58,652 nt of DNA, taken from IMG/VR virus record IMGVR_UViG_3300025586_000240, positions 1-58,652 of that record, one strand, 5' to 3'. Origin of the DNA: a virus. Shown one piece after another: positions 3,776 through 58,629 of this stretch. The translations under genes and the position numbers were made by a program. The notes under the pieces were generated by a model, which was not told where the DNA came from, made no database searches, and saw only the letters and a program-made list of their open reading frames with translations. How positions within the stretch are numbered: position 1 is the stretch's first letter; the number at the start of each line of letters is the position of its first letter.

Positions 3776-5820
3776 AACTAATATTCGATAGTGTCAGGTT
3801 TAGAAACTTCCTTTCCTTCGGCTCTAAATGGAATGAAATATCCTTCCAAAAAGGTGTTAATGTAATACTTGGCTCTAATGGTTCAGGTAAGAGCTCTTGT
3901 ATGGAAACCGTGCCTTTTGCTCTATTCAGTAAAACACATAGAGATGTTAAGAAAGCTGATCTTGTCAATTGGAAGAACAGAAAGCAATTAGAGGTCCAAC
4001 TATCCTTTTTTAAAGGTAATGATAACTATAAGGTTCTTCGTGCAATCAAACCTGATAATTTTGAAATATACAAGAATGATATGCTTTTTGATAAACTCTC
4101 CCATGTTAAAGATTATCAATCCTTATTAGAAGATATCATAGGAACTAATTTCCAAACATTCATGAGCCTCATACATTCCAACATCAATTCAAGTAAACCT
4201 ATATTAGGAATGAGTAAACCTGATAAGAGGAAATTCATTGAAAAGGTATTCGGTCTAACTATCTATTCCAAACTTATTGATAAATGTAACAAGAAGATTG
4301 CATCTATTGACACCAAGATAAAGGAAGCAGAATTCACTATAAGTCATAATGAGAAGTCTATAAGGGAATCTATTGAATGGACTAAGGATATAAACAGAAA
4401 GCTGACCAACCTTAAATCTTCTGCCATAGAATTCAATGACACAGAAGAAGAATTGAATGATGCTCAGTCCAAAATTACAGAAGATGAAAGATATTTTGAA
4501 TTGATGGAAAGCATTGATGACATTGCTATAAAGATGGATAAGTTAGAAATTGTAGAAGGTAGATTTAGAACAAAGAAGGCTGTTGTGGGGACCAGGATTA
4601 AAGATATATTGAAACGTATACCAGAGAAGATAGAGTATGAGACACCCAAAATGGATTATCGTGTGTCCTATGAACTTATTAATGAGAAAATTGAGCAAGT
4701 TCAGAAGGAGGTTAGAAGGTATGATAGAAAAATATCCACCCTCAAAGGTGAATTGGAGGGTCTAAAGAAAAGGCAAAAGCAATTAGATATAGGTAAGTGT
4801 CCTACATGCGGGCAAGATGTGGATAAGAAATTGATAAAGAGTTTGGACACATATACATCCTCTATAGAAACATACATAACCAATACAACAAAGATATATG
4901 AAGAAAAAGATAAAGAATTAGGAACGTTGACATCAGATGGTATGGAACTATTAGAGAAAGCAGAAGAACTCAAATCCATTAAGGATAAAGAAAACAAGAG
5001 GAAGTTGTTGACCTTTGAGAAGAATAAGTGGAAGAGGGTGTTTATCAAGCTCCTAAATTATATGAAGAAGATGGAAACAAAAAGGATAGCTCTAAACAAC
5101 AAGTCCTCTATCATAACGGAGGAGTATGAAAAAGAAAATAAACTGAGAAAGAACGTCGGGTCTTTGAAATCTAAGGTGGAACTGCTAAAAGAAAGGGTAT
5201 CATTAGAAGAAACCACAAGAAAAGAATTAAAGGCTCTCATATCTACTGATAACAACAAGAGTAAAGAGCATAAAGAAGAAAACAAGAAGTTGGGGATTGC
5301 TATTAGGAAGTTTAATGATATAAAGGATTACATGGATGAAATTAAACGAATTTGTAAGGACGAGAACATTAAAAAATTCGCTATAAGTTCTATAATTCCT
5401 ATATTAGTAAGAAATACCAATAGTTATTTAAGTGATATTGGAACACATCCATTTTATATTCAAATAAATGGTTGGTTAGAACCTACTATTAAAGGTCCGG
5501 GCATAACATCTGGTTCATATAATAGTTTGAGTTCAGGGGAAAGCAAGTGTGTTGATATTTCTCTGCAAAGTGCATTTTTGGATATAGCAAGAATTCAAGC
5601 GGGAATTTGTCCTGATATACAAATTTTGGACGAGATTCTTGATAGTAGTATTGATTCTTCAAGTTTGGATATATTGTTAGAAATGATAAGTAGAAAGCAG
5701 AGAGAGGATGATTCTAAGGTTTATATAATAAGTCATAGAAAGGAAGTAGGTGATTTAGATGCTGTAAATACCTTACTATTAGAAAAGAAAGGAGGCTATT
5801 CTCAAATAATATATAAATAG
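3772..5820 (+). CDS. SbcC/T4 gp46-like recombination ATPase
   Basis: A 682-residue SMC/Rad50-type ATPase. Walker A GSNGSGKSS is at 34-42. Long charged coiled coils occupy about 170-340 and 355-550. The zinc hook CPTCG has its cysteines at 343 and 346. The LSSGES signature is near 585, and Walker B ILDEILD has D620 and E621. A D-loop follows. Together with the gp47-like nuclease it would resect DNA ends to feed UvsX, as in T4. ATG 3772 overlaps the preceding stop (ATGA), and Met-Lys-Leu-Ile-Phe is the natural N-terminus of this family. Its length is normal for phage gp46 (about 560) to bacterial SbcC (over 1,000). Confidence 0.93.
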   Translation: MKLIFDSVRFRNFLSFGSKWNEISFQKGVNVILGSNGSGKSSCMETVPFALFSKTHRDVKKADLVNWKNRKQLEVQLSFFKGNDNYKVLRAIKPDNFEIYKNDMLFDKLSHVKDYQSLLEDIIGTNFQTFMSLIHSNINSSKPILGMSKPDKRKFIEKVFGLTIYSKLIDKCNKKIASIDTKIKEAEFTISHNEKSIRESIEWTKDINRKLTNLKSSAIEFNDTEEELNDAQSKITEDERYFELMESIDDIAIKMDKLEIVEGRFRTKKAVVGTRIKDILKRIPEKIEYETPKMDYRVSYELINEKIEQVQKEVRRYDRKISTLKGELEGLKKRQKQLDIGKCPTCGQDVDKKLIKSLDTYTSSIETYITNTTKIYEEKDKELGTLTSDGMELLEKAEELKSIKDKENKRKLLTFEKNKWKRVFIKLLNYMKKMETKRIALNNKSSIITEEYEKENKLRKNVGSLKSKVELLKERVSLEETTRKELKALISTDNNKSKEHKEENKKLGIAIRKFNDIKDYMDEIKRICKDENIKKFAISSIIPILVRNTNSYLSDIGTHPFYIQINGWLEPTIKGPGITSGSYNSLSSGESKCVDISLQSAFLDIARIQAGICPDIQILDEILDSSIDSSSLDILLEMISRKQREDDSKVYIISHRKEVGDLDAVNTLLLEKKGGYSQIIYK

Positions 5821-8567: not shown

Positions 8568-8909
8568 ATGGATTTTTGCGTAAAGAATTGTGATCAAATG
8601 GAATTCGGAGACAATAATTTTCGGTGTAAGTACTATGATAAGAATTTAGAATTCAACCATGGACTTGATAGTATAACCGTTTTAAGATGTAAGGAATGTA
8701 TGGATGATAATGTAATAGGTAGCAACACCGATCAAGAGAAAGGAAGAAAACTGAAAAAATTGTTAGGATACATGGCTGATAGTTTTTATAGCCACAAGGA
8801 TGAATTTGAAGATGCATTAACAGAAATGTATCGAATCATTCGGGACATGGAGAGCGAGGAGAAAGATGATGAAGAGGTCCGAATTCTCAAAACTAAAGAA
8901 GATAAATGA
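8568..8909 (+). CDS. Hypothetical Cys-rich protein
   Basis: A 113-residue protein. The first 45 residues contain Cys at 4, 8, 20, 41 and 44, suggesting a zinc site; the rest is helical and acidic. TAGGAGGTGA lies 12 nt before ATG 8568. A competing ATG at 8561, with better spacing, opens only a 10-codon ORF that ends inside this gene, so start selection may be regulated. Function unknown. Confidence 0.55.
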   Translation: MDFCVKNCDQMEFGDNNFRCKYYDKNLEFNHGLDSITVLRCKECMDDNVIGSNTDQEKGRKLKKLLGYMADSFYSHKDEFEDALTEMYRIIRDMESEEKDDEEVRILKTKEDK

Positions 8910-13599: not shown

Positions 13600-14073
13600 T
13601 TAAAAACTCCCTCTATATAATTTTACTGGATTACCTACTACTCTTATACCATCAGGCACATCCTTAGTAACAACACTACCAGCCCCTATGAATGATTCTG
13701 CTCCTATAGTACATGGACTTATAATGGTAGCATTTGCTCCTATCATAGCACCCTTCTTGACCAATATCTTTTCTAATTTACTGTTACCATAAGGATTAGG
13801 ACTTCTGACATTAGTGAATACAGCACTCGGTCCTATAAAAACATAATCTTCTAATGTTACACCCTCAAAGAGATGAACATTATTTTGTATCCTACATCCC
13901 TTACCTATTATGACATTAGGGCCTATCACACAATTTTGACCTATGTTACATAAATCACCTATAATGGTTCCTTCCATTATGTGACAGAAATGCCAAATTT
14001 TAGTATCTTTACCAATTATGACCCCATCATCCACATAGGAGGATTCATGTACAAATGCTATTTTCTGATCCAA
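13600..14073 (-). CDS. wbpD: WbpD/WlbB-like sugar N-acetyltransferase (left-handed beta helix)
   Basis: A 157-residue hexapeptide-repeat acyltransferase. HESSYVDDGVIIGKDTKIWHFCHIM at the N-terminus, GQNCVIGPNV and VGNPVKLYRG at the C-terminus match the WbpD/WlbB type that acetylates the 3-amino group of UDP-GlcNAc(3NH2)A. The matching oxidase (WbpB-like, 14597) and aminotransferase (WbpE-like, 21145) are in the same island. The start overlaps the methyltransferase 3' end by 16 nt. Symbol assigned by similarity; the sugar made here could be a close relative. Confidence 0.82.
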   Translation of the reverse strand: MDQKIAFVHESSYVDDGVIIGKDTKIWHFCHIMEGTIIGDLCNIGQNCVIGPNVIIGKGCRIQNNVHLFEGVTLEDYVFIGPSAVFTNVRSPNPYGNSKLEKILVKKGAMIGANATIISPCTIGAESFIGAGSVVTKDVPDGIRVVGNPVKLYRGSF

Positions 14074-14519
14074 AATCTACTTCTCCATCCACTATTATGA
14101 AACACATCATGTTTTAATGGTGTAAAAACTTTCATGGTTTCTTCTATATCTTCATAATTGATTTCCAAACCCCAATCATGACACCCTATTATATCACCAC
14201 TATTTAAATAAGGGGCATAGATGTTCACCTCTCCCTTCTTATTTCCATTATCACAATATAGAAATTTCTTCCTTTTGTCCTTGCATAGTTTAATGATATC
14301 GGCATCAGGTTTACTCAAGATATCCATAACTTTAAACATAACTTTACCTTTCAATTGTTTCCTTACATTATGAAAATACCTATCATCTATATCATAAGCT
14401 CTTATTTCAGCATTAGGACAGGTATCATTTAAAAACAGAGTCAAACCTCCGTATTGGGAGCCAAACTCTATAATTAGTTCCGGGTTAAGATCTGTTAAAA
14501 TTTCAGCTATTGTATTCAT
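14058..14519 (-). CDS. SAM methyltransferase, N-terminus displaced by a tandem repeat
   Basis: From ATG 14519 this gives 153 residues with LIIEFGSQYGG (SAM motif I), RAYDID, and a C-terminal GCHDWGLEINYEDIEE resembling cephalosporin-hydroxylase/Methyltransf_24-type enzymes. The natural start appears to be ATG 14610: it begins MKKFKPVEMGGFDYKGIR, but three copies of an 8-bp unit (14546-14569) then force a stop. With one copy the frame would run DYKGIRLRHEWQAMNTIAEI directly into the 14519 ORF. The internal ATG may give a truncated product by reinitiation. Its role would be O- or N-methylation of a sugar; it sits between WbpD- and WbpB-like genes. Confidence 0.7.
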   Translation of the reverse strand: MNTIAEILTDLNPELIIEFGSQYGGLTLFLNDTCPNAEIRAYDIDDRYFHNVRKQLKGKVMFKVMDILSKPDADIIKLCKDKRKKFLYCDNGNKKGEVNIYAPYLNSGDIIGCHDWGLEINYEDIEETMKVFTPLKHDVFHNSGWRSRFWIRK

Positions 14520-14545
14520 TGCTTGCCATTCATGACGAAGCCTGA

Positions 14546-14571
14546 TACCCTTATACCCTTATACCCTTATA
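14546..14571. repeat. 8-bp tandem repeat, three copies, in a coding region
   Basis: TACCCTTA is repeated three times (14546-14553, 14554-14561, 14562-14569) plus two further bases. It lies in the 5' coding part of the methyltransferase gene read leftward. Removing two units restores a single uninterrupted frame from 14610 to 14058. This is the structure expected of a slipped-strand contingency locus. Confidence 0.85.
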
Positions 14572-14596
14572 ATCAAACCCACCCATTTCCACCGGT

Positions 14597-15478
14597 TTAA
14601 ATTTTTTCATATTTCTTTCTCATCCTCCATACCAATTCTATAGAAGGTTTAGCATCTTCTATACCATACCCTCCTCCATTTAGTATATCACGATACACCT
14701 CAGTATGTAAATCAGCAAAAACCTTATCCATACGAATAAGTTCCTCATTTACAGTAATTTCTCTAAATGCTCCTTCATGTCCTTCTGGTAGTAATCCACT
14801 ATCAGTTGACAATAAAAAGTTAGCCTTGGCTCTATCCAGATAAACTGTTCCTTCTACTGTATGCTTGTCCATAGTATTGATTGCAAAACTCAATTGCTTT
14901 CCAAATATCCATATAAGCATATCAAATAGATGTATACCTATGTTAGTAAGTATACCACCAGACTTTTTATTATTACCCTTCCAGGACCTATCATACCATG
15001 GACCTCTTGGAGTAATATAAGTGATGTTTACTCTACACATACCAGAGGGTAGGTTTTCCTTGAGTTTCAATAATTCCGGATGATACCTTAGTTGAAGTAT
15101 ATTGTATATCTTTTTACCTGTTTCTTTTTCTATCACCTGTAATTGTTCTATATTTTTAGAAAAAAGGACTAAAGGTTTCTCACATATAACATCGGCACCT
15201 ACCCTCATTCCTAATCTACAATGGGCATCATGTAAGTAATTAGGAGAACATATACTTAAATAGTCTATGCCCTTACCTTCCCTTTTCAGCAATTCTAAAT
15301 GACGGTCAAACCTTTCTATTTCAGTAAAAAACTCACATTCAGGAAAATAAGAATCAAGTATACCCACTGAATCATGTGTATCCACAGCAGCTACAAGATT
15401 ACCACCTATTTCTTTAATTGCTTTCATATGTCTTGGTGCTACATAACCGGCGGCACCCATCAATGCAAAATCAGTCAT
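14597..15478 (-). CDS. wbpB: WbpB/WlbA-like UDP-amino-sugar-uronate 3-dehydrogenase
   Basis: A 293-residue Gfo/Idh/MocA oxidoreductase. The N-terminal Rossmann segment GAAGYVAPRHMKAI (8-21), SICSPNYLHDAH, CEKPLVL, ILQLRYHPE, the SWKGNNKKSGGILTNIGIHLFDML block and a fairly short C-terminus match WlbA/WbpB enzymes, which oxidise UDP-GlcNAcA at C3 using NAD. The product is the substrate of the WbpE-type aminotransferase (21145). No UDP-GlcNAc 6-dehydrogenase (WbpA) is in the window, so UDP-GlcNAcA must come from the host or another phage region. The end overlaps the probable full-length methyltransferase start. Confidence 0.88.
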   Translation of the reverse strand: MTDFALMGAAGYVAPRHMKAIKEIGGNLVAAVDTHDSVGILDSYFPECEFFTEIERFDRHLELLKREGKGIDYLSICSPNYLHDAHCRLGMRVGADVICEKPLVLFSKNIEQLQVIEKETGKKIYNILQLRYHPELLKLKENLPSGMCRVNITYITPRGPWYDRSWKGNNKKSGGILTNIGIHLFDMLIWIFGKQLSFAINTMDKHTVEGTVYLDRAKANFLLSTDSGLLPEGHEGAFREITVNEELIRMDKVFADLHTEVYRDILNGGGYGIEDAKPSIELVWRMRKKYEKI

Positions 15479-23394: not shown

Positions 23395-23412
23395 TCATTT
23401 TCTTTTATCTTC

Positions 23413-23440
23413 TTTCTCCTATTTTCTTTCTCCTATTTTC
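23413..23440. repeat. 14-bp tandem duplication at the acetyltransferase 3' end
   Basis: TTTCTCCTATTTTC occurs twice in direct tandem (23413-23426 and 23427-23440). It overlaps the final codons and stop of the acetyltransferase gene on the minus strand, duplicating an AGGAG motif there. Confidence 0.75.
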
Positions 23441-23814
23441 TTTGCTGGATTACCCGCCCATATTTCAAATGCTGGGATATTTTTAGTTATTACACTACAA
23501 GCACCTATGATAGCACCTGCACCTATTGTTTCTACACCTATAATTAGAGACCTTACACCTATAAATACATCTCTTTCTATATGGAGTTCAACAGGTATAA
23601 TTTTTTGAATTTTCCCTCTTCTACCCCTTGAATGGTTCCATTTATGTTGATGGGTAAGTATCATAGTTTCAGCACCTACTTCAGCGTATTCAGCTATATA
23701 AACATTACTTGCAAGGTCTATTCTAACATCTCTATGTATATGACATTTCTCATCAGCAAATAATTCACCTTTAAATAATTTTTTGTGTGCATATGTAAGT
23801 GTAGGTATACCCAT
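23419..23814 (-). CDS. Hexapeptide-repeat acyltransferase (MaaT-like)
   Basis: A 131-residue left-handed beta-helix protein. HIHRDVRIDLASNVYIAEYAEVGAET, HQHKWNHSRG with the probable catalytic His, GVRSLIIGVETIGAGAIIGA and the closing WAGNPAKKIGER are typical of maltose/galactoside O-acetyltransferase-like enzymes. Acyl-CoA-dependent O- or N-acetylation of a sugar is expected. It begins inside the stop region of the PIG-L deacetylase gene, so acetylation and deacetylation steps are coupled. The C-terminus lies in the 14-bp duplication. Confidence 0.82.
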   Translation of the reverse strand: MGIPTLTYAHKKLFKGELFADEKCHIHRDVRIDLASNVYIAEYAEVGAETMILTHQHKWNHSRGRRGKIQKIIPVELHIERDVFIGVRSLIIGVETIGAGAIIGACSVITKNIPAFEIWAGNPAKKIGERK

Positions 23815-27000: not shown

Positions 27001-27818
27001 TAAGTAACTCTCCACATATCAATCATAAAATCATCATTCCTTGGAGGGTTCCAATATACTTTTCCTGGTTTATATCCATTTAACCTCACAGATCCCCCTT
27101 CACCATGTTTTTGCCTTCCTAAATGCTTCATATAGTAACCATTATTTAATTGCATATATTCTTCCCTGGTTTTATTTCCACCAAATTCCTTTAAACAGCA
27201 TAATCCATATCCAAGAAAGTAAGTTCCTGTATTCTCCATTACCCATTCAGGTCCTCTAACAAGGTCACCTTTCAGTATATCATTCATTCTCCAGTGTATA
27301 TTCTTATCAAAGCTCTTCCAAAAAGGTTTAATATAGGATGCTCTCCATAAGGCGGGTGTAAATGCCCAATGAGGGTCAGTAACTAAAGGTACACCATCCC
27401 TTACTACTTGCTTCTTAGTAAAATAATTCCCTCTCTTCCATGATATGCGTCTCTTATGAAAAGCTATCTGGTTGATTCCAGGATGTTTGTCCATCAAGTC
27501 TACTAATGGGTTCAAATCTAAAGGTTTTATTAGTTCATAATCATCCTCAACATTCAGTATATAAGGAGTATTGGTTTGTTCTAATAACCAAGTTAGTGAT
27601 GGTCCTTGTCCTATAGGTGTTTGGTTAACTTTGGATACATCATATATACCAACTTCATTTATATAATCAGTACATTGTTTTGACCATTCTTCATGTAAAG
27701 AATCTTCATGTATCAGCCATCGAAATCCTCCATCATATTTCAAGTTCTTCTGTAGTGCTTCTGTAGTAGTTTTAAGATAATCAGGTCTGGAAGCACTTGT
27801 CCTCATTATATCAATCAT
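27000..27818 (-). CDS. GT-A-type glycosyltransferase-like protein (paralogue 1)
   Basis: A 272-residue protein starting MIDIMRTSASRPDYL at ATG 27818 (AGGTG upstream). It has a GT2-like layout: RTSASRPDYLKTTTEAL near the start, GQGPSLTWLLEQTNTPYILNVEDDYE with an acidic D-D pair around 80-100, then KQVVRDGVPLVTDPHWAFTP (about 145-164) and a C-terminal MNDILKG/NTGTYFLG region. It is about half identical to the protein at 32896-33648, except that 20 residues are identical and encoded by 56 identical bases. Probably transfers a sugar to a glycan; acceptor unknown. Confidence 0.65.
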   Translation of the reverse strand: MIDIMRTSASRPDYLKTTTEALQKNLKYDGGFRWLIHEDSLHEEWSKQCTDYINEVGIYDVSKVNQTPIGQGPSLTWLLEQTNTPYILNVEDDYELIKPLDLNPLVDLMDKHPGINQIAFHKRRISWKRGNYFTKKQVVRDGVPLVTDPHWAFTPALWRASYIKPFWKSFDKNIHWRMNDILKGDLVRGPEWVMENTGTYFLGYGLCCLKEFGGNKTREEYMQLNNGYYMKHLGRQKHGEGGSVRLNGYKPGKVYWNPPRNDDFMIDMWRVT

Positions 27819-28542
27819 TATAGAACACCTGATCACTTGTTCTCATAAACCTTCTTCCTATAGGTATCTTATCCTGATAGGCCCTTACCTCATCATCGGT
27901 TATCTCATCAAGCATCATTTGAATAGCTAAATAAGGCTCACAAAAACCTTTATCATATATGTAAGTACTTAGTCTTGGATTAACTTCTATCACTTTATCC
28001 CCTATGAACTGAACACCGTTACAATACTTCAATCCTAATTCCTTTGTTATCTTCTTACACATCTCAACATGGTAGGGAGAATCTACCAATACACCTTTAG
28101 AGCTTAGACCGTACTTGGATTCCTCTCTTATCTTTACTGTAACTAATAGAGCATCACTATCTTCATTTGCTAATACCATGCAGTCGTATTCGGTCCCTTC
28201 TACAAATTCACACAGAAGTAGATCGGGTAATTGATTTTCGTTCTCAAATAGTTTTATGAAGGTATCCATACTTATATATGGCTTGAATGGCCTCTCTTTA
28301 AACAATATATCAATGTCATTCCTATTTTTATCTATTATACGAAACCCTCTTGAACCCTTACCTATATATGGTTTAAAGCATATCTTTTTACTTGGATATC
28401 CTAAATGGAAGGCTCCAGCTTCAAAATCATCAAGGTCATAAGGTGTAAAATATTTGGGTATAGGTATATCAGCTTTCTTTAATTTTTCATACAACAAAAG
28501 TTTATCTTCAACATCTTTGATAACCTTGTAATCATTAACCAT
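27811..28542 (-). CDS. ATP-grasp ligase, C-terminal part of a split gene
   Basis: A 243-residue ATP-grasp domain. YPSKKICFKPYIGKGSRGFRII (about 49-70) is the glycine-rich ATP-binding segment, LLLCEFVEGTEYDCMVLAN the hinge region, and KVIEVNPRLSTYIYD the metal-binding end (E-x-N-x-R). The N-terminal domain is encoded just upstream in another frame (28535-28834); a triplicated 7-bp unit at 28533-28553 causes the split. With two units the frames fuse as NGCKLMVNDYKVIKD. Carboxylate-amine ligation in glycan assembly is likely. The piece could still be translated from its own GTTAATG-derived ATG at 28542. Confidence 0.75.
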   Translation of the reverse strand: MVNDYKVIKDVEDKLLLYEKLKKADIPIPKYFTPYDLDDFEAGAFHLGYPSKKICFKPYIGKGSRGFRIIDKNRNDIDILFKERPFKPYISMDTFIKLFENENQLPDLLLCEFVEGTEYDCMVLANEDSDALLVTVKIREESKYGLSSKGVLVDSPYHVEMCKKITKELGLKYCNGVQFIGDKVIEVNPRLSTYIYDKGFCEPYLAIQMMLDEITDDEVRAYQDKIPIGRRFMRTSDQVFYND

Positions 28543-28553
28543 TAACCATTAAC
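28533..28553. repeat. 7-bp tandem repeat, three copies, splitting the ATP-grasp gene
   Basis: CATTAAC is present three times without interruption (28533-28539, 28540-28546, 28547-28553). On the coding strand this is GTTAATG x3. Deleting one copy joins the two flanking open frames into one ATP-grasp reading frame. Confidence 0.85.
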
Positions 28554-28834
28554 TTACATCCATTTACAGATTTTATTTGTGGTTTCATAGCTGCTATCTT
28601 TGCTATTTCTAAACTTGATTCAGGTATTACAATATCAGGTTTCTCATTAAATATCACATCAAACAATTCTAATTTAAAATAACCATCTGATGCAGGAGGA
28701 ACTTGATGGAACTTATCAACCATAAATCTACCACTTGCATTTTCATCCATATCTGTACCTATAATTTCAATATCACGCTCTTTAAAATAGCCTTGAGTTG
28801 TTTGAATAGAGGTATAAAACCTGGTGTTCCACAT
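28535..28834 (-). CDS. ATP-grasp ligase, N-terminal (pre-ATP-grasp) part
   Basis: The open frame gives IEIIGTDMDENASGRFMVDKF, VPPASDGYF and KPDIVIPESSLEI, the pre-ATP-grasp domain of carbamoyl-phosphate-synthase-like ligases. Its true start is probably ATG 28863 in another frame: that frame reads MKNLKILITACGTPGFIPLF, the expected first strand and glycine loop. A one-base shift near 28780-28800 separates the two. So the gene 28863-27811 carries two frame breaks and may be inactive. It overlaps the DUF5662-like gene by 14 nt at its probable start. Confidence 0.65.
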   Translation of the reverse strand: MWNTRFYTSIQTTQGYFKERDIEIIGTDMDENASGRFMVDKFHQVPPASDGYFKLELFDVIFNEKPDIVIPESSLEIAKIAAMKPQIKSVNGCKLMVNG

Positions 28835-28849
28835 GCAGTTATTAGTATT

Positions 28850-29344
28850 TTAAGATTCTTCATTGTTAATTAATTCCTCGATTCTTTTCCTTGATTCAGG
28901 ATGCATTTTCATTTTACTACCATTCTTGTCATACCATTTTTTAACATTCGGAGTTCCTTGTGCTCTACCCGCACCACACCAATCACAATACATTTCTTTT
29001 ATATATATCTCCGGTATCTTGAATATCTTAGTGCCACCTCCATCTTCTGGAAGTATCCACCACTGCCAATGATGCTTATTTCTTTTCTGATGAAGTAACC
29101 AAGCGTAGTCGAATTTACTATCACCTGTATCGGTTGGTTTATAATAACCCGTTTCATCTCTACCTTTATTGATATCGCTTTTCATTGTACCATAGAAGTA
29201 GTTCGCATAAGGGAACAACTCACTTGGGAGAAATTTACTCCAATCATGTATGATACCTCTCCATACTATACCTTGTTTACAGCAGGCAAGGAAAACAAAC
29301 CACTTATGCCTCAATAAGTAAGATAAATATTTAAGATGCTTCAT
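28850..29344 (-). CDS. DUF5662-like phage protein
   Basis: A 164-residue protein. HKWFVFLACCKQGIVWRGIIHDWSKFLPSE (about 13-42) is the hallmark of the DUF5662 family, with a helical N-terminus and an HD-like pair. HQKRNKHHWQWW and a CDWCGAGRAQG segment follow. The HxxD/HD arrangement suggests a metal-dependent hydrolase, but function is unknown. Found in many phages. The start overlaps the small gene upstream by 14 nt. Confidence 0.75.
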   Translation of the reverse strand: MKHLKYLSYLLRHKWFVFLACCKQGIVWRGIIHDWSKFLPSELFPYANYFYGTMKSDINKGRDETGYYKPTDTGDSKFDYAWLLHQKRNKHHWQWWILPEDGGGTKIFKIPEIYIKEMYCDWCGAGRAQGTPNVKKWYDKNGSKMKMHPESRKRIEELINNEES

Positions 29345-35638: not shown

Positions 35639-37881
35639 TTACCCAATACCTCCTTGAACATTTTTCTATAGTTTTCTGCTTGTATCTTCCATGTCCATTT
35701 TTCTTCTACTGTTTGTCTTGCTTTCCTTCCCATCTCCTGTACTACTTCTCTATTGTTCTTCATCCAATTTAACCGTTCTATATATGATTTAACATTCCTT
35801 TCAACCATATACCCATTAATACCCTCATTTATGAATTCTGGTACATTACCTATCTTATTACCCACAAAACATCTACCTGTTGATGTCGCTTCCAGTAATT
35901 GATTAGGAGTACCATCCATATCAGAAGCAATCATTATCATATCAACATCATGATAGAAAGGTGGTATTTTCCCTGGTTTTATCACATTAGGGGAGTTAAA
36001 TCTACATACTTGGGATTTCAATTTTACTTCCGCTTGTCTACAAGATTCTATAACAAATTGTACATAACCCTTCCTCGTAGTATTTTTACCCACATAACCC
36101 ACTGTAAATGGTTTAGTTATGTCTCTTTCTTTAAATGCAAAAAGGGTTTCATCAACACCATTAGGTAAGTAATATACTTCACTATAATACTTTTCTAATT
36201 CCTTTTGTAGCAATACACTATTAGCATGATGAAATTTAGAACCATCCAACATCTGTTTCCAATTACCCCTATAACTGGTATATGTATGTGATGTTACACC
36301 TGTCAATTTTTGCTCAGCTGGTATATGAGAAAGGAAATGTGAAGCACCACAATCAAATGTAAAATACAAGTCAAACTTTTCTTTCCTATCGAACTTATCT
36401 GTTGGGGATGATTGAAAATATCTTATAAATATATTGAAATCGTCACTTAACCATTTCTTTATATTCTTAGCTTTAACATCCCATGCCCAGCCCCTTACAT
36501 CTGAAAGTATTAGTATATCAGGTTTTCCATTTTTAGATCTTTCTCTTTTTATTATTTTTGTTGGTTCTTCCTTCTGCTTTGGTTCTTCCTTCTTCTTCTT
36601 TTGCTTTTCCCTTCTTATTACTTCTAAATCTCTTAATGTGCCTTCATCTGGACCATATTTTATTTTCCATTCTTCTGGAGACATATCCCTTTTCATATTA
36701 TTCATATCCTTTTTAAGTAGTTCAGATTTAACTTTTAGAGATTCCCTTTTCTTTATAAGGTCCCTTTCCTCATCATCAATCTTTTCTAATTCTTTAGATA
36801 TATCAATTATTCTCTTTTCAATTTCACCTTTATTTGAATATTCCGTTGATTTTCTATTATTTACTATATCCCACAACATTTTTCTATAGTTTTCTGCTTG
36901 TATCTTCCATGTCCAGCTTTCTAATACAGTTTTTCTTGCAATATTACCCATTTTTATCAGTTCATTTCTATGATCACGAAAGTATAGTATTTTTTCAGCA
37001 TATTTATCAACATTCTTTTCAACGAGAAATCCATTAATACCATCTTGAATAAACTCTGGCATATTACCAACTCTATTGGATATTATAGGTCTTCCACAAG
37101 CGGCAGCCTCTAATGCTGTATTGGGTGTCCCGTCTTCTTGACTTGCTACAATGAAACAATCAAAACCATTATATATTGACGGCATTGTTTCATGTGTTAA
37201 AGCTTCAGTATGATCTTTATAATTAGGATGATATAAACATTTAGCTTTCTTTACAGCCGGTTCTATAAATTCTAACTGACCCTTTAATGGAGATAATTTA
37301 CCAACATGACCAACTATAATGTTTTCTCTTTCATTAGGTATGGGAGTGGTGGGTCTAAATAGTGTTTCGTCTACTCCGTTAGGTAGGTAATATATGTTAT
37401 CATGAATATTTCTTAATTGACTAAGCAACAATTTACTGTTAGCATGAACAGCTCCAGCAAGATTCATCTTAGGTTCTATTACACTTATAGGTCTATGTGA
37501 TGTAATACCAGTAACCTTTTTATTTTTAGGTATCCCTTTCAAAGGTTCAATATCTATATAGCTATAACCGAATGTGAAATATACATCATATTTTTTGGGA
37601 TCTATCTTACCCCCAGCAAGGATACAGGTAATATCAAACTCATTAGATAAATATTTTTTCAATTGAACGGATTTAAAATACCATGCCCAATTCTTTACAT
37701 CACATATAAACAATACCTTCGGCTTAATCACCTTTTTAATTTCTGATGTTATATACAGATGAGATTTTTCCTCGGGCTTGACAACCTCGGGCTTGACAAC
37801 CTCGGGCTTGATCACCTTTTTAACTTCCTTGGGTTTATTACTTTGCCCTGGACTGTTTACAATCATACCTATTTTTGACAT
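35635..37881 (-). CDS. Tandem two-domain family 4 glycosyltransferase
   Basis: A 748-residue protein with two homologous GT4 (GT-B) domains, at about 52-345 and 465-748. Each has a VLFICDVKNWAWYFK/ILILSDVRGWAWDVK start, a YYLPNGVDETLF middle and a DGTPNxxLEAxxxGR donor-binding motif followed by GNxPEFI. They are joined by a highly charged coiled-coil linker (about 355-455, Glu/Lys/Asp). The N-terminal 45 residues contain the repeat KPEVVKPEVVKPEE encoded by a 15-bp tandem repeat (37771-37810). Two sugars may be added in sequence. It is the largest island protein. Confidence 0.83.
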   Translation of the reverse strand: MSKIGMIVNSPGQSNKPKEVKKVIKPEVVKPEVVKPEEKSHLYITSEIKKVIKPKVLFICDVKNWAWYFKSVQLKKYLSNEFDITCILAGGKIDPKKYDVYFTFGYSYIDIEPLKGIPKNKKVTGITSHRPISVIEPKMNLAGAVHANSKLLLSQLRNIHDNIYYLPNGVDETLFRPTTPIPNERENIIVGHVGKLSPLKGQLEFIEPAVKKAKCLYHPNYKDHTEALTHETMPSIYNGFDCFIVASQEDGTPNTALEAAACGRPIISNRVGNMPEFIQDGINGFLVEKNVDKYAEKILYFRDHRNELIKMGNIARKTVLESWTWKIQAENYRKMLWDIVNNRKSTEYSNKGEIEKRIIDISKELEKIDDEERDLIKKRESLKVKSELLKKDMNNMKRDMSPEEWKIKYGPDEGTLRDLEVIRREKQKKKKEEPKQKEEPTKIIKRERSKNGKPDILILSDVRGWAWDVKAKNIKKWLSDDFNIFIRYFQSSPTDKFDRKEKFDLYFTFDCGASHFLSHIPAEQKLTGVTSHTYTSYRGNWKQMLDGSKFHHANSVLLQKELEKYYSEVYYLPNGVDETLFAFKERDITKPFTVGYVGKNTTRKGYVQFVIESCRQAEVKLKSQVCRFNSPNVIKPGKIPPFYHDVDMIMIASDMDGTPNQLLEATSTGRCFVGNKIGNVPEFINEGINGYMVERNVKSYIERLNWMKNNREVVQEMGRKARQTVEEKWTWKIQAENYRKMFKEVLGK
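37771..37810. repeat. 15-bp in-frame tandem repeat (KPEVV)
   Basis: CTCGGGCTTGACAAC at 37771-37785 and 37786-37800, then a partial third copy (CTCGGGCTTG, 37801-37810). The period is 15 bp, so changes in copy number keep the frame. It encodes Lys-Pro-Glu-Val-Val units in the N-terminal extension of the tandem glycosyltransferase. Confidence 0.85.
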
Positions 37882-37884
37882 TTA

Positions 37885-38970
37885 TTACAATTTCCTTTTT
37901 AAATATTTTTCTTTAGTTTCCTTCCATGATAACTTAATTAAATCATCATAAAATAGCATTTCTGTATTGTATTTATCATTTTCAATCATGTTTTTTAGCC
38001 TTTTTGAGGCATATTTTTCTTTCCATAGATCAGTTAATGCTTTTATAGAATTATCAAATAAAGGCTGTCCATAATCTTCAGTTTCACCTCTTAAATATTC
38101 ATTAGTATTAGTGTATAACCTGCACCAATAAGAACCTCTTGGAGCATGATTAGCAGGAGGTCTTATACCATAATTACTATATATCATGGTTAGTATCCTA
38201 CCTTTAGGTCTGGAACCTTCATATATTCCTCTAATTTTTTCAGGATATTTTTTCTTTAATTCTTTTACTGCTTCCTTATATACATTATCAGATGGTTCCA
38301 ATGATATCTTACCTTCAGATGTGCCGCATTTCCTCCAATACTTCAAACGGGTGTACTGACTAAATCCACCATAAAGACTTGTAGTTGTTATGCCTATTAG
38401 TTTTTCCTTATTATAATAGGCATTCCATGTATCAACCACAGGCTTAGAACAAACCATTAGAGCAATAAGTTTACCACCTACATAATTATATCCTAATGGT
38501 TGAGTTGGAGAGATTGAGGAACCCATAGCTGTATATCTGAGGAATTTCTTTAAACGATCATCTCTTGACCAGCCTATATATTCGTCTCTAGGTTTTAGTG
38601 ATATGAAATCGGAACCTAATGATATGATTCCAATGTAGGTAAGGTCAGGTTTATTCATTACAATAAACCTTTTAATGCGACCTTTGTTAGCATTCCAATG
38701 TGCCGAATGTGTAAATATGCGGAGAGTATTCCAGGTAAGGCTTTGATCCTTAGTTATTACAGGAATAATTATTGGTTGGATTTTTAGGTAATCTTCTGGT
38801 TGGCTTGGTTTCCAAATACATTGCTTGACTTCCCACATTTTTTGCTTTTCAGCTATGGACCATTCTCTATTGTGTATTTGATGCCAACCACGATATAGAG
38901 TATATTCCTTTATATTCATACTGGACAACATATTAAAATTTTCTTCAAACAATTTTTTTATATTACTCAT
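37885..38970 (-). CDS. DUF4338/DruA-like protein
   Basis: A 361-residue protein. KPRDEYIGWSRDDRLKKFLRYTAMGSSISP (about 121-150) and YVGGKLIALMVCSKPVVDTWNAYYN resemble the DUF4338 proteins, which include DruA of the Druantia anti-phage system. TTTSLYGGFSQYTRLKYWRKCGTSEGKI follows. The N-terminus starts MSNIKKLFEENFN, an N-terminal version of the LFEE element. It is directly downstream of a DNA methyltransferase. Family assignment rests on motif similarity only. The role in phages is not known. Confidence 0.55.
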   Translation of the reverse strand: MSNIKKLFEENFNMLSSMNIKEYTLYRGWHQIHNREWSIAEKQKMWEVKQCIWKPSQPEDYLKIQPIIIPVITKDQSLTWNTLRIFTHSAHWNANKGRIKRFIVMNKPDLTYIGIISLGSDFISLKPRDEYIGWSRDDRLKKFLRYTAMGSSISPTQPLGYNYVGGKLIALMVCSKPVVDTWNAYYNKEKLIGITTTSLYGGFSQYTRLKYWRKCGTSEGKISLEPSDNVYKEAVKELKKKYPEKIRGIYEGSRPKGRILTMIYSNYGIRPPANHAPRGSYWCRLYTNTNEYLRGETEDYGQPLFDNSIKALTDLWKEKYASKRLKNMIENDKYNTEMLFYDDLIKLSWKETKEKYLKRKL

Positions 38971-57795: not shown

Positions 57796-58629
57796 TCAAT
57801 TTATCCTGAGCCATTCGGGTTTTCTACCACCCATACGCCCATACGCCCATACATGTGTTTTTTCTTCTAATCGTATTTTATTAAAAACAAACTTCTTGTT
57901 TTTGTGTGAACCTTTTAATAGTCTTGAAAAGAAGTCCATTATAATTTTCTTATTTAAACTAATATTATTACTATTTGTTGATTTTAAAAATTTTGATGTT
58001 ATACTATTATTCACAGGGTCTATTTCTACAAAAGCCTTACTATCTTTATATAATATACCTTCCTGTTTAAAATATTTACCTAACTCAACAGCTTCCTTTT
58101 TAGTTATTGATGCTATAAATAACAATTTTTCATTTACAAACCCCCCATCTTCTCTATATCCACCTTTCATTTCAATAAAACCATATCCAATTTCTCTTAC
58201 CATTTTTTTCAATTCAACATGATTTTTTTCATTTTCTTTATTACTATAAGTTCCTTTATAAGCAGATATAACGGCAAATGGCTTTTTCTCCTCTTCCACA
58301 AACTGCCATATCCTACTCAATGAAGATTCTGATAAATCCTCTATCCTCTTTTCTATCAACATTTCCCTTTTGTGTGTAACAGATTCATTATATAGAACAT
58401 CATTTGATATCTTATCTACTGTGAGTTTTCCATGATAAGTATAAAATTTTGAAAGTGTGTCTATTTTTACAGGCATAAACTTATCATCCTCTCGGAATCC
58501 CTGTGTACCTTTAAGTATTCTATTCGCCCAATCATGTAAGTAATCTTTGGTCTTATTATTTAGTTTTGATAATTGTACTGACCAAAACTTATTAGGGTAT
58601 CTCCTTATACGAATCCACCCACTTTTCAT
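57796..58629 (-). CDS. Hypothetical protein, possibly frame-shifted at its 3' end
   Basis: A 277-residue protein. KPFAVISAYKGTYSNKENEKNHVELKKMVREIGYGFIEMKGGYREDGGFVNEKLLFIASITKKEAVELGKYFKQEGILYKDSKAFVEID (about 115-203) is a conserved-looking phage domain with a K-G-G-Y-R-E motif. The end lies in an 8-bp tandem repeat at 57831-57852. With two units fewer the C-terminus would be KTHVWVVENPNGSG rather than the present AYGRMGGRKPEWLRIN. Starts 23 bases from the window edge. Confidence 0.62.
   Translation of the reverse strand: MKSGWIRIRRYPNKFWSVQLSKLNNKTKDYLHDWANRILKGTQGFREDDKFMPVKIDTLSKFYTYHGKLTVDKISNDVLYNESVTHKREMLIEKRIEDLSESSLSRIWQFVEEEKKPFAVISAYKGTYSNKENEKNHVELKKMVREIGYGFIEMKGGYREDGGFVNEKLLFIASITKKEAVELGKYFKQEGILYKDSKAFVEIDPVNNSITSKFLKSTNSNNISLNKKIIMDFFSRLLKGSHKNKKFVFNKIRLEEKTHVWAYGRMGGRKPEWLRIN
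57831..57852. repeat. 8-bp tandem repeat, nearly three copies, at the 3' end of a gene
   Basis: CCATACGC at 57831-57838 and 57839-57846, then CCATAC at 57847-57852. On the coding strand this is GTATGGGC with an 8-bp period. It falls in the last codons of the 57796-58629 gene. Two fewer units would change the C-terminal reading frame to one ending NPNGSG with a TAA stop just before the next gene. Confidence 0.85.

Follow-up and report, generated by a model that had tools for sequence, protein, structure and literature searches.

Among the closest described counterparts of the locus analyzed here is neuO of prophage CUS-3, a phase-variable polysialic acid O-acetyltransferase gene with a heptanucleotide repeat, of which 2 to 93 copies follow just past the start codon and twelve copies correspond to four translated heptads (PMC3046976). 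In Mycobacterium tuberculosis, reversible gene silencing by frameshift indels, which leaves frameshift scars, has been described across thousands of isolates (PMC8339072). We compared with these systems a methyltransferase gene in a 58.7-kb virus record (the window, that is, the whole stretch of DNA analyzed). Like neuO, it appears to be carried by a phage and to serve glycan modification, and its coding region has a short non-triplet tandem repeat close to the 5′ end; unlike neuO, where 2 to 93 copies are translated and switching has been demonstrated, it has three copies and a stop in every longer state, and it is known from the sequence of one contig (PMC3046976). With the M. tuberculosis cases it shares the principle that small indels inactivate genes and that a later indel could reverse this, but here we deal with a single contig and units of 7 to 8 bp rather than thousands of isolates (PMC8339072). 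The first-pass annotation had considered phase variation little described in phages, a statement that has to be qualified, since in neuO a phase-variable gene of a phage is already known (PMC3046976). The features that the analysis relies on are the following.

14058 to 14519, minus strand: main piece of the methyltransferase gene, 153 aa, RMNT_CmcI-type SAM-dependent (PF04989), from the restart ATG (ORF, Pfam, homologue fold)
14545 to 14571, minus strand: 8-bp tandem array, 3.4 copies of TATAAGGG on the coding strand, then the imperfect copy TATCAGG (sequence, TRF)
14552 to 14610, minus strand: 5′ part of the methyltransferase gene, opened by ATG 14610 and closed after 19 codons by a TAA within the array (frames, homologous N-terminal element, codon usage)
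27811 to 28542, minus strand: part of the ATP-grasp gene that encodes the ATP-grasp domain (PF02655; domain match)
28533 to 28553, minus strand: 7-bp tandem array in three copies, splitting the ATP-grasp gene (sequence, TRF)
28535 to 28834, minus strand: piece of the ATP-grasp gene with a PylC-like N-terminal domain (PF21360), the true N-terminus lying further upstream in another frame
57830 to 57852, minus strand: third array, 2.88 (about 2.9) copies of an 8-bp unit, where ORF 57796-58629 has its 3′ end (sequence)

On the minus strand, positions 14545-14571 hold 3.38 perfect copies of TATAAGGG, and TRF calls a period-8 array of 3.9 copies with 95% matches at 14541-14571; across it, the coding strand reads GAT TATAAGGG TATAAGGG TATAAGGG TATCAGG. 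This confirms the three 8-bp copies inside a gene that had been reported from the first reading, whose unit TACCCTTA is a rotation of TATAAGGG. The frame opened by ATG 14610 reads MKKFKPVEMGGFDYKGIRV and then meets TAA inside the array, so that the early stop stands as claimed, with a peptide of 19 codons that is one residue longer than originally written, and the main open frame begins anew at ATG 14519, again as reported. With three units, TAA occurs in every frame because 8 is coprime to 3. When copy numbers from 0 to 9 were enumerated, a continuous methyltransferase frame (178 aa) appeared at n=1 only, in line with the earlier claim that the gene can be read with one unit only; two copies lead to a stop after 28 aa, and three to nine copies always to one after 19 aa. 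Contingency loci are expected to carry a non-triplet coding repeat that sets the frame, which the 8-bp unit does (one copy ON, the others OFF), but also to be ON at several copy numbers, every third one, with a stop-free unit, where this gene is ON at n=1 only, and to combine a high copy number with a high switching rate, where the methyltransferase array has about three copies. As in a pseudogene, the methyltransferase carries one frame-disrupting lesion at a site where its homologues are intact.

In the collections searched, megablast and tblastn against phages revealed no near relatives of the window, and none were found through RecA-like and ATP-grasp protein scans, by searching viral and genome contigs with the methyltransferase as the single query protein, or among 20 phage records compared with the gp46-like protein; a PDB sequence search returned nothing useful. 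Homologues of the methyltransferase in viral contigs were reached only by a degenerate pattern for CDNGNKxxE, which gave mostly chance matches in genome contigs. They are distant, the best identity to the window protein being 44%. A profile built from 30 homologous frames, nearly all from phages and with the window sequence left out, scores the one-copy read-through at 176.5 bits versus 161.3 for the restart ORF. Most homologues carry F..G(I/V)...(Q/H) just ahead of the first helix, and this element straddles the window repeat, with GFDYKGI before it, RLRH after it and no gap in the one-copy reading; the homologue L072 has GFEYKGIPVSQQ at the matching position, and the homologues are without any repeat at the array site. 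Since the homologues hold the same element in register, the pre-repeat peptide is, by sequence comparison, real coding sequence. The match to PF04989 rises from 26.9 bits for the restart ORF to 30.7 for the read-through (curated cut-off 23.2), and its start moves from profile position 23 to 7. Independently, codon usage changes frame at the array: 14552-14602 is placed in the upstream frame, although this stretch is short and its score low, and 14069-14551 in the downstream one.

The predicted structure of L072 (pLDDT 93.3) has a hairpin at residues 13-20 and a helix at 24-36, and it matches the CmcI structures 2bm8 and 2br5 with a TM-score of about 0.6-0.7, all these values being those of the homologue's model. 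On it, the Met of the restart ATG 14519 maps inside this first helix; therefore, the restarted protein would be without the hairpin and the Q/H position, while keeping the Rossmann core and an intact CDNGNKxxE motif. No clear ribosome-binding site lies upstream of ATG 14519. The gene thus resembles RMNT_CmcI methyltransferases (PF04989; 2bm8, 2br5) in its Pfam match over the cut-off and in the CmcI-like fold of the homologue model; it differs from CmcI, with which the structural alignment shows about 14% identity, in belonging to a phage subfamily that carries CDNGNKxxE and has no PHROG family. This CDNGNKxxE family is widespread in phages, with about 30 divergent members (viral loci L036-L085), 23 of them without a PHROG family match.

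The methyltransferase is part of a minus-strand block of sugar-biosynthesis genes that covers roughly 12-39 kb of the window and includes an N-acetyl sugar amidotransferase (WbuX), a DegT aminotransferase, epimerases, a formyltransferase, a PIG-L deacetylase, hexapeptide acetyltransferases, a sulfotransferase-like protein and several glycosyltransferases. These neighboring genes suggest a glycan as its substrate. Its neighbors, both of which it overlaps, encode a Gfo/Idh/MocA oxidoreductase on one side and a hexapeptide acetyltransferase on the other. In many other phage loci the same two neighbors adjoin with no methyltransferase between them (aligned gap 5-74 bp), and because of this the gene looks like an accessory insertion. 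A protein with a DruA match (37885-38970, minus strand; PF14236, Druantia protein) adjoins the cassette, and an in-frame 15-bp repeat (PEVVK) occupies 37770-37811, where a 748-aa protein that has two glycosyltransferase domains begins at its N-terminus.

The methyltransferase array exceeds chance. Arrays with a unit of 7-14 bp and at least 2.8 perfect copies number three in the window versus 0.017 expected in order-3 Markov sequence. Counting units whose length is no multiple of three, 751 kb of other phage contigs yielded a single such array. One contig accounted for all five arrays in another 707 kb of viral loci, and the bacterial loci (329 kb) had none. Heptanucleotide arrays also occur in L016, a phage contig that shares the oxidoreductase gene (2798-2946, 3957-3985 and 8626-8657, one lying directly ahead of the shared gene); we considered them as a parallel and set them aside, as those beside the homologous gene fall outside the main genes.

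A similar break was found in the ATP-grasp gene (27811-28860, minus strand), which sits 14 kb from the methyltransferase in the same glycan cassette. Its phage homologue L134 has one open frame that aligned across the junction without a gap, and haloarchaeal ATP-grasp homologues each match the greater part of the query at a single location. The repeat is ON only at n=2 among copy numbers 0-9. A second lesion in this gene, a one-base shift near 28785, falls within a short T run. The first 26 residues of the gene product are encoded in another frame; they match L134 with a score of 56, reached by 0 of 2000 shuffles, and with them the PylC-like match reaches back to where the profile begins. As in a pseudogene, the frame of the ATP-grasp gene is disrupted, here by two lesions, and its homologue is intact. 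We also considered whether the 7-bp unit compensates the one-base shift, leaving the same frame on both sides, and rejected this, as the intervening stretch has a stop in that frame and the protein is not restored. A homology scan for frame breaks returned the ATP-grasp gene only; it covers genes with homologues among the loci compared, and the upstream piece of the methyltransferase is too short for it.

The reading that we consider probable, with some reservation, is that a glycan (sugar) methyltransferase gene carried by a phage is present in the window as an allele inactivated through replication slippage. The ancestral gene would have had one TATAAGGG beside the imperfect copy TATCAGGC, and slippage would have expanded the unit to three, so that 19 codons are followed by an in-frame TAA. 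Translation from ATG 14610 would then end at the array, and the only later in-frame start would yield a protein that is missing both the Q/H position and the conserved hairpin at the N-terminus; because of this early stop and the shortened restart, the gene is most likely OFF, presumably with loss of activity. A like event, from two 7-bp units to three, would have broken the ATP-grasp gene. Both sites may have been natural seeds for slippage, the methyltransferase because TATCAGGC is an imperfect second copy of its unit, the ATP-grasp gene because its array already has two units in the open state, and we infer slippage as the cause of both expansions. Loss of units could reopen the methyltransferase, whose lesion is in principle reversible, probably at a low rate, whereas the one-base shift would still disrupt the ATP-grasp gene. 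This independent second lesion points to decay and not to a tuned switch. Because expansion adds a stop and the ATP-grasp gene is irreparable by contraction, we favor slippage-generated inactivation over a tuned switch, which we retain as a live minority reading. Three observations speak against inactivation: we have one contig, and the ancestral state would have to be deduced from distant homologues (best 44% identity); the restart ORF has the methyltransferase core, and a product with residual activity could arise from it; and three arrays in this window, with almost none in other phages, might reflect selection for repeats instead of accident.

The first-pass annotation had gone further and proposed slipped-strand phase variation. 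What holds of this is a slippage-type 8-bp expansion that broke the gene; the switch itself found no support, as at least three copies always lead to a stop, homologues have no repeat, and a variable-gap pattern search for alleles with other copy numbers found none in the collections searched. A true contingency locus, whose repeat expands and contracts during replication and produces mixed ON and OFF phages varying a surface glycan, is therefore unlikely in our view, with only three copies, a single ON copy number per gene and a second ATP-grasp lesion beyond repair by its repeat; it nevertheless draws weight from the finding that 7-8 bp arrays break two genes of one glycan cassette, far above chance, from glycan-modifying genes being the usual targets of such switches, and from neuO as a phage precedent (PMC3046976). 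The wider proposition, that this is a glycan cassette with several genes switched by low-copy 7-8 bp repeats to diversify surface sugars of the host or of the phage itself, we regard as quite improbable. About equally doubtful is an assembly or sequencing artefact, with the extra units and the one-base shift absent from the phage: the record is a virus contig whose copy counts come from assembled sequence, and the short T run of the one-base shift is a typical site of sequencing error, but the arrays are just 21-27 bases long, short enough for single reads, and the frame-break scan, with its single hit, argues against widespread errors among the genes it covered.

Could the methyltransferase be expressed in spite of the repeat? 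Reinitiation after the early stop might translate the 153-aa ORF from ATG 14519 into a working shorter enzyme; the intact Rossmann core and CDNGNKxxE motif would allow this, and coupled translation is plausible since genes of the block overlap, but homologues carry the N-terminal element, the start has no clear ribosome-binding site before it and, in the model, falls inside a helix, so we consider it very improbable. Programmed recoding, in the form of a ribosome hop over the extra units (bypassing) or of a +1 shift near the UAA, strikes us as barely credible. Tandem units do supply identical take-off and landing codons, and a +1 shift beside UAA could read both repeat lesions, yet the matched codons follow trivially from a tandem repeat, repeats are not conserved in homologues, and, unlike in bypassing of the T4 gene 60 type, there is no RNA structure beyond that of shuffles (z-scores -0.83 and 0.31). 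The codons before the stops (GUA and GGU) are not known to be slippery sites.

If copy numbers vary in the population, the phage would have contingency loci of its own for glycan chemistry, which have so far come mainly from bacteria and neuO. If instead they are fixed, the window shows short tandem expansions disabling accessory genes in phage sugar cassettes, which would caution against calling each such repeat phase variation.

Further repeats were observed beside these. The ORF at 57796-58629, of which the third array touches the frame end only, has a weak S-AdoMet lyase/DUF3293 match. At 23410-23443, a 14-bp unit in 2.4 copies spans the stop codon of the hexapeptide transferase gene 23419-23814. 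The phage contig that holds L072, the closest N-terminal match to the methyltransferase, contains a 10-bp unit in 8.3 copies (L141, 2889-2971).
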